From assembly GCA_016783505.1 (NCBI GenBank), contig JADHWK010000039.1, positions 1 to 19,736 of the forward strand: DNA of 19,736 nt, written 5' to 3'. The position numbers and the translations under genes are program-made. The notes below the pieces were generated by a model, which made no database searches, was not told where the DNA came from, and saw only the letters and a program-made list of their open reading frames with translations. Numbering within the stretch: position 1 is the stretch's first letter; each line of letters opens with the position of its first letter. The DNA comes from Candidatus Zhuqueibacterota bacterium. GTDB taxonomy: Bacteria > BS750m-G25. This document shows, in pieces, positions 3,277-5,241 of the stretch.

Positions 3277-3305
3277 GGAAACCCACGATTTCAATCGTGG
3301 GTTCC
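3277..3305. repeat. Hairpin upstream of the sigma factor gene
   Basis: ACCCACGATT pairs with AATCGTGGGT across a TC loop; the stem extends to GGAA/TTCC with a one-base bulge. No T-run follows on either strand, so it is not a standard terminator. It lies in the interval between the short-ORF RNA and the sigma gene. Confidence 0.6.
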
Positions 3306-3436: not shown

Positions 3437-3472
3437 AAAAAATAAAAAACCCCCGAAGAATTCAGGGGTTTG
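3437..3472 (-). terminator. Intrinsic terminator of the short-ORF RNA
   Basis: On the minus strand AAACCCCTGAA pairs with TTCGGGGGTTT around a three-base loop, with one mismatch. It is followed by TTTTTTATTTTTT. The T-run lies only on the minus-strand exit side. Confidence 0.8.
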
Positions 3473-3499
3473 TAGGTAGTGAGCAGTTTCAGGTCGTGC

Positions 3500-3562
3500 T
3501 CAGGACCATCTAAGGCAACCCTCAGCACAGTGGGCCACAGGTCTCAGCATCCACCTTTTCAT
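3500..3562 (-). CDS. Predicted 20-aa microprotein
   Basis: ATG at 3562, TGA at 3500-3502. The peptide is MKRWMLRPVAHCAEGCLRWS: basic, two Trp and two Cys in an HC-x3-C arrangement. GGAGGTG four to five bases upstream is a good SD. The ORF fills the middle of a transcript with its own promoter and terminator, which is the main reason to believe it. A longer overlapping GTG frame (3274-3528) reads through the terminator and is not credible. No homologue is recognised. It could be a leader peptide, but no attenuated gene follows the terminator closely (the sigma factor ATG is about 250 bases away). Confidence 0.4.
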   Translation of the reverse strand: MKRWMLRPVAHCAEGCLRWS

Positions 3563-3615
3563 ATGACACCTCCATTCATTCTAACCGGGTTTTCTGGCAT
3601 TTATTTTTGCAGATA

Positions 3616-3644
3616 AATATACGGATTTTTAGGGACTTTGTCAA
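3616..3644 (-). promoter_or_regulatory. Consensus sigma70 promoter of the short-ORF RNA
   Basis: TTGACA (3639-3644), 17 bases, TATATT (3616-3621) on the minus strand. The predicted start is near 3609. Confidence 0.75.
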
Positions 3645-3689: not shown

Positions 3690-3749
3690 TTAATTCAAAA
3701 CCACTATTTTCTTCACCTACACAAAGTTACCTATTTTTATCTGAAAATA
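3690..3749 (-). pseudogene. T9SS type A C-terminal tail relic 1 (outer, copy A)
   Basis: The minus frame reads YFQIKIGNFV, TAG, VKKIVVLN, stop. It matches the closing residues of T9SS type A sorting domains (…AGDFVQVKKMVVLR). No upstream coding sequence survives. Confidence 0.45.
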
Positions 3750-3893
3750 TTTTCATCGCAAAGTTCACTAAGAACGCAGAGAAGAATATTTTCATTTAGC
3801 AATCAACAATCAGCTATCAGCTTCTTTTTTCTTAATTTTTCATTGCTAACTTTAAATTGCTAATTGCTAATTGCTAATTGCTAATTTTAATCA

Positions 3894-3959
3894 TTACCTC
3901 AAAACCACCATCTTCTTTACCTACACAAAGTCACCTGGGCCCATCCGGTCTCCATAGAT
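3894..3959 (-). pseudogene. T9SS type A C-terminal tail relic 2 (inner, copy A)
   Basis: The minus frame reads IYGDRMGPGDFV, TAG, VKKMVVLR, stop. It aligns without gaps to the typical tail YFYRMEAGDFVQVKKMVVLR; the TAG falls where Gln (CAG) is expected, a single C-to-T change. An in-frame TAA precedes it. This is the clearest of the four relics. Confidence 0.55.
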
Positions 3960-3993
3960 TTAATCCCGATGTTTTGGGATTTTATAAGCGACC

Positions 3994-4371
3994 TCATAGC
4001 AACCGTAATCTGGTGACCCTGGGGTCTATGATCACCTCCTCATGCTCAAAGTCAAGTTTGAAACGCCATTTCTGCATCGTAGCCGTCCCAATGATCACAT
4101 CTTCCGATAAATCAGGAATTACCATAAACTCGTCAGAAAAGCGGTAGCCGTCAAGGTAGAAATCAAGGCTCACACGCTCCTTTGCCCCAATCTTTCTTTT
4201 TTTCTCCGCTGTTTCAAACTCCAGGGGAATTGGAATTCGCTCCAAAATTCCCAGACTTTTTGCCAGCCTTCTCTCAATGCAGGAATAGGTGGCACCCGAG
4301 TCAAACAGGCCTTCCAACTCCTTCTCCCCTTTTGAGCCTGCAAGTTTCAGTTTCTTGGTGATAACGGCCAT
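3994..4371 (-). CDS. Retropepsin-like (clan AA) aspartic protease, copy A
   Basis: 125 aa. The catalytic motif is LFDSGATYSCI (Asp24-Ser-Gly), Ser replacing the commoner Thr, as in some pepsins and retropepsins. A flap-region segment follows, then MVIPDLSEDVIIGTATMQKW, matching the hydrophobic 'iiG...l' that ends the retropepsin fold. One monomer is present, so it should act as a homodimer. There is no signal peptide. The start at 4371 is set by AGGAGG eight bases upstream and by a consensus promoter (4415-4443); a longer frame from 4443 would overlap the -35 box and is rejected. It is 77% identical, without gaps, to copy B. The substrate is unknown; bacterial clan AA proteins of this size are poorly characterised. 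Confidence 0.8.
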   Translation of the reverse strand: MAVITKKLKLAGSKGEKELEGLFDSGATYSCIERRLAKSLGILERIPIPLEFETAEKKRKIGAKERVSLDFYLDGYRFSDEFMVIPDLSEDVIIGTATMQKWRFKLDFEHEEVIIDPRVTRLRLL

Positions 4372-4414
4372 TATATAACCTCCTGAAAAACGTCTTCTTT
4401 TTGCTGCTTTTCTT

Positions 4415-4443
4415 AATATAGGAAAATTTAATACGATTGTCAA
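4415..4443 (-). promoter_or_regulatory. Consensus sigma70 promoter of protease copy A
   Basis: TTGACA (4438-4443), 17 bases, TATATT (4415-4420) on the minus strand. The predicted start near 4408 gives a leader of about 37 bases ending in a good SD. Copy B has no equivalent. Confidence 0.75.
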
Positions 4444-4485
4444 TACCGAATTTCGCAGTGGCTGAAATTTATTGGAAGGGGGTTC

Positions 4486-4525
4486 AAAAAAAAAAAAAAA
4501 CCGCCCCGTGCTGAGCTCGGGACGG
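4486..4525 (-). terminator. Strong intrinsic terminator
   Basis: On the minus strand CCGTCCCG pairs with CGGGGCGG (one G-T pair), with an inner GCT/AGC extension, followed by 15 consecutive T. It lies 28 bases past the stop of the T9SS-tail relic at 4553-4612, so it was probably the terminator of that lost gene. Today it insulates copy A from transcription coming through copy B. Confidence 0.85.
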
Positions 4526-4552
4526 CATTTACGACGCTCTGTTTGTTTGGGA

Positions 4553-4612
4553 TTACCTCAATACCGCTATCTTCTTCACCCGCACAAAGTTACCTATTTT
4601 TATCTGAAAATA
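4553..4612 (-). pseudogene. T9SS type A C-terminal tail relic 3 (outer, copy B)
   Basis: Reads YFQIKIGNFVRVKKIAVLR, stop, with no internal stop codon (CGG where the other relics have TAG). A strong terminator follows at 4486-4525. This looks like the least damaged 3' end of a secreted-protein gene whose body has been lost. Confidence 0.5.
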
Positions 4613-4763
4613 TTTTCTTATCAAATTTCACTAAGAACGCAGAGAAGAGTATTTTCATTTAGCAATCAACAATCAGCTATCAGCTTTATTGTTCTTAATT
4701 TTTCATTGCTAATTTTAAATTGTTAATTGCTAATTGCTAATTGCTAATTGCTAATTTTGATCA

Positions 4764-4829
4764 TTACCTCAAAAACACCATCTTCTTTACCTACACAAAG
4801 TCACCTGGGCCCATCCGGTCTCCATAGAT
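4764..4829 (-). pseudogene. T9SS type A C-terminal tail relic 4 (inner, copy B)
   Basis: Reads IYGDRMGPGDFV, TAG, VKKMVFLR, stop. It is nearly identical to relic 2 and shares its TAG, so the mutation predates the duplication. Confidence 0.5.
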
Positions 4830-4863
4830 TTAATCCCGATGTTTTGGGATTTTATAAGCGACC

Positions 4864-5241
4864 TTATAGTAACCGCAATTTGGTGACCCTGGGGTCTATG
4901 ATCACCTCCTCGTGCTCAAAGTCAAGTTTGAAACGCCATTTCTGCATCGTAGTTGTCCCAATGATGACTTCCTCCGATAGATCAGGGATTACCATAAACT
5001 CATCCGAGAAGCGATAGCCATTAAGATAAAAATCGAGCCTCACCACTTCTATTGCCTCTATTTCCTCACCCTCCTTTGCTGTCTCAAAGGAGAGCGGGGA
5101 CGATAACGGAGTAATGATCCCTAATTTCTGAGCCAATCCCTTCTCGATGCAGGAATAGGTGAAACCTGAGTCAAACAGGCCCTCCAACTCCTTCTCCCCT
5201 TTTGAGCCTGCAAGCTTAATCTTCTTTACAATAATTACCAT
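4864..5241 (-). CDS. Retropepsin-like (clan AA) aspartic protease, copy B
   Basis: 125 aa, with LFDSGFTYSCI (Asp24-Ser-Gly) and MVIPDLSEEVIIGTTTMQKW. The reading frame is intact. Compared with copy A, residues 9-33 and 69-125 are almost identical, while 20 of the 29 differences fall between residues 34 and 68, the flap/substrate region in retropepsins. The ATG at 5241 aligns with copy A's start; a TTG three codons earlier is possible. No SD precedes either, and the position where copy A has its promoter is occupied by an inverted repeat (5259-5319). It may be weakly expressed, or depend on a different start signal. Confidence 0.75.
   Translation of the reverse strand: MVIIVKKIKLAGSKGEKELEGLFDSGFTYSCIEKGLAQKLGIITPLSSPLSFETAKEGEEIEAIEVVRLDFYLNGYRFSDEFMVIPDLSEEVIIGTTTMQKWRFKLDFEHEEVIIDPRVTKLRLL

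Follow-up and report, generated by a model that had tools for sequence, protein, structure and literature searches.

A minute bacterial gene joining a conserved microprotein to a 27-nt pseudoknot that phages also carry

What is the short, well-signalled unit at positions 3,437 to 3,644 of this stretch: a gene for a very small protein, an RNA, or both at once? The window, as the whole 19,736-nt stretch of DNA analysed is called here, was read in the initial annotation as holding a compact stand-alone unit at this place, with no strand named. The description holds: promoter, Shine-Dalgarno (SD) sequence, 20-codon ORF and terminator can all be located, in this order and all on the minus strand, read from 3644 to 3447 (Table 1). 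The predicted mRNA would measure about 165 nt, from a strong housekeeping-type promoter to the terminator, and the unit is presumably both transcribed and translated. Most relatives of the gene, described below, likewise have a G-rich, SD-like stretch 5-15 nt 5' of the start codon.

Table 1. Features of the unit, in order of transcription (window coordinates)
Feature	Position	Strand	Basis
Promoter TTGACA-N17-TATATT	3616..3644	-	sequence; 53 own-genome copies vs 0 reversed
Shine-Dalgarno GGAGG	3569..3573	-	sequence
Microprotein ORF, MKRWMLRPVAHCAEGCLRWS and stop	3500..3562	-	ATG at 3562; profile match; codon-position differences
Conserved 16-codon core, C-terminal ...VAHCxEGC	3515..3562	-	alignment of relatives
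8-nt spacer, codon 16 to RNA structure	3507..3514	-	equal length in 22/23 loci
27-nt H-type pseudoknot GTCCTGAGCACGACCTGAAACTGCTCA	3480..3506	-	stem 1 3506-3504/3495-3493; stem 2 3502-3497/3485-3480
Intrinsic terminator AAACCCCTGAATTCTTCGGGGGTTT plus T run	3447..3471	-	11-bp stem

As for the promoter, the 2.5-Mb genome of the source organism holds the exact string 53 times and its backward reading not once; a close copy that agrees at 27 of 31 bases precedes the ribosomal L21/L27 genes, and the string looks like the housekeeping promoter of this lineage. One of the 53 copies stands 5' of a cobalamin riboswitch (L060, RF00174). The comparison genomes all share only the domain with the source, and conservation is thus judged on distant relatives. 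There the ORF proved to be conserved, in answer to the check on related genomes that the initial annotation had proposed; DNA similarity to the whole unit, sought in the own genome (searched by pattern and by profile) and 58 others, was confined to the promoter. The unit is also not found beside the ECF sigma gene in the best relative (L003, 61% identity), where the sigma gene and the genes following it are present. Could this then be chance, a functionless orphan ORF that happens to have good signals? The genomes compared include none from the phylum of the window, which leaves that idea some room, but conservation both as a peptide and as an RNA in 20 families refutes it for the sequence, and we consider it next to negligible.

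The peptide of the window, MKRWMLRPVAHCAEGC-LRWS, has 20 residues, contains cysteine and is a member of a conserved microprotein family. Its members share the core M-[KR]-[KR]-[WYF]-M-[LIV]-x-x-V-A-H-C-x-E-G-C, followed by a variable tail of 0-12 residues. They were collected with the pseudoknot motif, then with a combined pattern, and then with a profile of 16 peptides that is independent of the pseudoknot. The motif search of 386 genomes gave G199 and G083; both have the same small ORF 5' of the pseudoknot, in the same register. The profile found members in 22 of the 386 diverse genomes, spanning 20 families, with E values from 3e-5 to 2.5e-14; many of these matches are rows of the profile itself, and the new finds outside its rows are G126, G268, G120, G149, G320, G308 and G093. 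The window peptide, whose row is included in the profile, scores an E value of 5.5e-13. In the 16-row alignment C12, G15 and C16 are invariant, and two weaker members vary at position 16. Pairwise differences amount to 0.29, 0.32 and 0.63 at codon positions 1, 2 and 3, the third being about twice the others, and the frame is under selection in the relatives, as in a protein-coding microgene. A microprotein, as the initial annotation had proposed, is therefore supported by relatives in 20 families and by this third-position excess, the very codon check it had suggested.

The family reaches beyond cellular genomes: a 735-kb phage genome encodes MKRYMLRPCARCANGCRCYKSK, which has no canonical pseudoknot, and a viral contig carries MNLESYSRHWFLRPVAHCKKGC directly 5' of a terminase-like gene, whose function was read by eye. 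No member was found on plasmids, and the Pfam and NCBIfam profiles gave no match to the peptide at E values up to 10. That the peptide belongs to an undescribed family scattered widely over bacteria is, as far as sequence comparison goes, well supported. A selenoprotein with a SECIS element was considered and rejected, since several relatives have TGG or CGG where the window has its TGA.

What, then, of the RNA? When phage records were searched with high sensitivity, two Paracoccus phages and a Christensenellales phage matched, and only over the 3' part of the unit; the one exception, a weak match (H1, Microviridae), falls elsewhere in it. Exact copies of the shared string, GTCCTGAGCA-N-GAC-NNN-AAAC-TGCTCA, are present in at least 120 viral contig stretches. 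In the window it forms an H-type pseudoknot that overlaps the stop codon of the ORF, with GUC/GAC as stem 1 (positions 1-3 with 12-14) and UGAGCA/UGCUCA as stem 2 (positions 5-10 with 22-27); the outermost pair 5:27 is optional. Scans in which one base was forced to change and its partner left free found pairing retained throughout: in 134 of 134 cases for pair 1:14 (73 A-U, 40 U-A, 19 C-G, 2 U-G), in 27 of 27 for pair 3:12, and in 54 of 54 for pair 7:25 (50 G-C, 3 G-U, 1 U-A). Among 62 distinct copies, 99.5% of cells are paired and six pairs have changed on both sides. The covariation score was attained by 0 of 500 shuffles, and slid registers also stayed far below it. Searched with a descriptor of the structure alone, 3.9 Mb of DNA, part of it retrieved with these very covariation patterns, yielded 465 copies, and its reversed sequence 3.

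Compensatory changes thus occur in both crossing helices, as an H-type pseudoknot demands, and the class is well supported by this covariation. The search for compensatory pairs that had been recommended at the outset was accordingly positive, and the structure suspected then has its counterpart in the 27-nt pseudoknot; the TGCTGAG and ACCTG repeats named as its basis do not account for it. The minimum-energy fold of the whole unit is unremarkable (z -1.55), because the true structure is a pseudoknot, which ordinary folding does not see. Unpaired C4 and AAAC at 18-21 are nearly invariant across phages of many hosts, a constancy partly built into the search patterns.

No Rfam 15 family scored above its curated threshold at the pseudoknot, permissive scans included, and no known riboswitch or RNA family was found in the unit, in keeping with the first reading, which had recognised no known RNA. 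Searches of the open literature described neither peptide nor pseudoknot, a weak negative in that subscription papers and bioRxiv lie mostly outside their coverage. Both elements may therefore be new relative to Rfam 15, Pfam, NCBIfam and the open literature, and an earlier description elsewhere is possible.

Where do phages keep this structure? Among the annotated phages with the pseudoknot or a near variant are those of Staphylococcus aureus, Mycobacterium, Arthrobacter, Corynebacterium, Synechococcus, Nostoc, Moorella, Vibrio and Lactobacillus; it was not found in E. coli genomes. The placement is regular: 360 of the 450 copies away from contig ends lie at most 120 nt 3' of the stop codon of a same-strand ORF, in sense orientation. 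Of 289 non-redundant distances from stop codon to pseudoknot, only 5 are below 6 nt, and the counts at 6 to 12 nt run 52, 31, 18, 13, 13, 10 and 9. A tRNA gene starts 1-13 nt 3' of the pseudoknot in 53 to 55 copies (about 12%; 38 sequence clusters), against a background of about 1% of random positions with one within 150 nt; upstream tRNAs are rare. Known readthrough and frameshift pseudoknots share the geometry of a 6-7 nt spacer behind the stop codon, which would suit such a role here. However, the spacer lacks three-base periodicity, the stop codon is TAA in 103 of 150 cases, an in-frame extension of at least 60 codons lies behind it in only 12%, and slippery sites number 5 in 150. The TAA stops, the aperiodic spacer and the short extensions argue against readthrough, and we hold this role to be very improbable.

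Some single phage loci are worth recording. Five exact copies of the pseudoknot lie within 15 kb of one phage contig (L118), where none is expected by chance. In a Christensenellales phage (L082, 3001-3184), it stands immediately 5' of a DUF2800 RNA (RF02960), and the flanks in L131 and L150 look similar to those of L082 by eye. A hammerhead-like sequence follows within about 40 nt 3' of the pseudoknot in L178 and L196, too few for enrichment; behind phage copies in general such sequences number 3 versus 1 in controls.

In the bacterial genes, peptide and RNA are tied to each other. Of 23 loci, the window included, 22 have a structure that begins exactly 8 nt past codon 16, while the position of the stop codon varies from codon 17 to codon 25; the pattern behind the first detections fixed this spacing, and the loci found later by profile are free of that constraint. 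By inspection, G126 and G093 have stems of new sequence with pairing retained. The pseudoknot gives way at that place to a plain GC hairpin with another sequence in G120 and G320, and in G149 a hairpin lies directly behind the last codon; a 4-bp stem 1 with a 5-bp stem 2 can also pair in G320, which is perhaps a genuine pseudoknot variant. Judging by these replacements and the fixed spacing, what is conserved is stable folding at a constant distance from a ribosome at codon 16 or 17. The ORF of the window and of most relatives ends within the pseudoknot, whereas phage copies keep at least 6 nt free. Translation to the stop codon would then melt the knot, so that knot and ribosome must alternate.

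How might these pieces work together? Our preferred reading, which we judge evenly balanced between right and wrong, is a microprotein gene that stands on its own and has a portable barrier at the 3' end of its mRNA, where it would protect the message, meet the ribosome, or both. It draws on the observed gene anatomy, conservation of the peptide, covariation and fixed placement of the pseudoknot, and adjacency to phage tRNAs. The pseudoknot between ORF and terminator, of a class that phages place shortly after stop codons as a portable element, could act as a compact barrier 3' of the coding region that blocks 3'-to-5' exonucleases, and might lie right against a ribosome positioned on codon 16/17 or on the stop codon. 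The message would thereby outlive processing or decay from its 3' end. In the phage tRNA cases, the upstream mRNA would have the pseudoknot at its new 3' terminus once RNase P has cut. The peptide itself would be a trans-acting product. A 3' barrier seems the simplest reading of the phage placement, which agrees with a stabiliser of mRNA 3' ends. Several observations count against it: the stop codon lies inside the knot, which a ribosome terminating there would unfold, as it would not in phages; terminator-like hairpins are not enriched behind the phage copies; and the conservation of C4, T5 and AAAC goes past base pairing, more than a barrier needs. More tentatively, and with a little less than even confidence, the 27-nt pseudoknot can be seen as a new RNA class, a general 3' mRNA shield in tailed phages near tRNA and gene boundaries, which in bacteria became fixed in an old gene for a microprotein, as its second half, with ribosome position and fold coupled.

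An alternation of ribosome and knot is also predicted if the product is an arrest (leader-type) peptide, and this is the main rival. The 16-residue core, together with the structure 8 nt downstream, would stall the ribosome as it decodes codon 16 or 17, and the stall would sense a signal and control either the short RNA or genes lying downstream of it. All the conserved residues would then sit in the exit tunnel, the spacing stays at exactly 8 nt although the stop wanders from codon 17 to 25, and a same-strand gene often comes next (the ECF sigma gene in the window). The following genes are unrelated, however, a terminator stands directly behind about half of the relatives' loci, and the spacing may be mere inheritance because most copies are homologous; we rate arrest as unlikely, if worth keeping in mind. 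Or does the pseudoknot serve chiefly as the binding site of a conserved protein or small molecule, a phage/host regulatory element for which mRNA protection is secondary? The near-invariance of several unpaired bases speaks for this, and the excess conservation at C4, T5 and AAAC could reflect a bound protein or ligand. Yet downstream genes differ widely, plain hairpins substitute for the knot in some bacterial members, and tRNA adjacency would go unexplained, so a binding site as the main function appears rather improbable to us.

The neighbours of the bacterial loci are mostly unrelated to each other. Genes that follow include those for EF-P, a MerC-like protein (in G376), a thiol peroxidase, an ABC transporter, a YHS protein and, in the window, the ECF sigma factor, on the same strand and 328 nt after codon 16. 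A few neighbours are metal or redox genes. In G296 a CsoR-type repressor lies directly upstream and a YHS protein downstream, and a second copy in this genome has a hybrid-cluster protein and a thiol peroxidase on either side; G093 has an ArsR-type regulator upstream, and G083 has a CsoR-type repressor with HMA/YHS and PCYCGC proteins in the region. Metal binding or thiol reactivity of the conserved His-Cys/Cys pair is a guess, for which these few metal and redox neighbours give a lead only.

Known H-type pseudoknots include frameshift and readthrough elements, the leader of phage T4 gene 32 and the preQ1-I riboswitch. The element described here shares with them two crossing helices, a one-base first loop and an A-rich third loop, but differs in sequence, in combining a 3-bp stem 1 with a 6-bp stem 2, in its site behind stop codons and in having no Rfam match. 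REP hairpins, as in malE-malF, are 3' stabilisers of bacterial mRNA, and the likeness lies in a structure just 3' of the coding region, within operons and before processing sites; here it is a pseudoknot rather than a palindrome, common to phages and bacteria of many groups. Leader and arrest peptides such as TnaC, SecM and the Erm leaders similarly have about 16-24 codons, conserved residues and an RNA structure close behind, whereas this microgene is often monocistronic with its own terminator and has no shared downstream gene. HDV-like theta ribozymes, self-cleaving double pseudoknots near phage tRNAs, have been discussed in tRNA 3' processing (PMC10879173). They too are small RNA elements adjoining phage tRNAs, but the present knot has 27 nt and lies on the 5' side of the tRNAs, after a stop codon.

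The appeal of the system is that two parts lend themselves to joint tests in laboratory strains. One is a pseudoknot of very small size and strong conservation, found in phages of Staphylococcus, cyanobacteria, actinobacteria and other hosts, for which a clear role in the fate of mRNA 3' ends is predicted; the other is a 16-residue core peptide common to bacterial families, which standard annotation would overlook. If the pseudoknot does act as a 3' barrier, bacteria and phages would own a knotted counterpart of the hairpin stabilisers, and a 27-nt part would be usable in expression design.

The surroundings of the unit hold two further features. Between it and the ECF sigma gene, at 3280-3304, lies the palindrome AACCCACGATTGAAATCGTGGGTT, which recalls REP or IS200-type hairpins. 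On its other side, window positions 3690-5241 contain a tandem duplication with a spacing of about 870 nt and 84-91% identity over three blocks; the duplicated item is a small aspartyl-protease-like gene with its downstream sequence, whose copies at 3994-4371 and 4864-5241, both on the minus strand, match Pfam Asp_protease_2, the second slightly under the cut-off.
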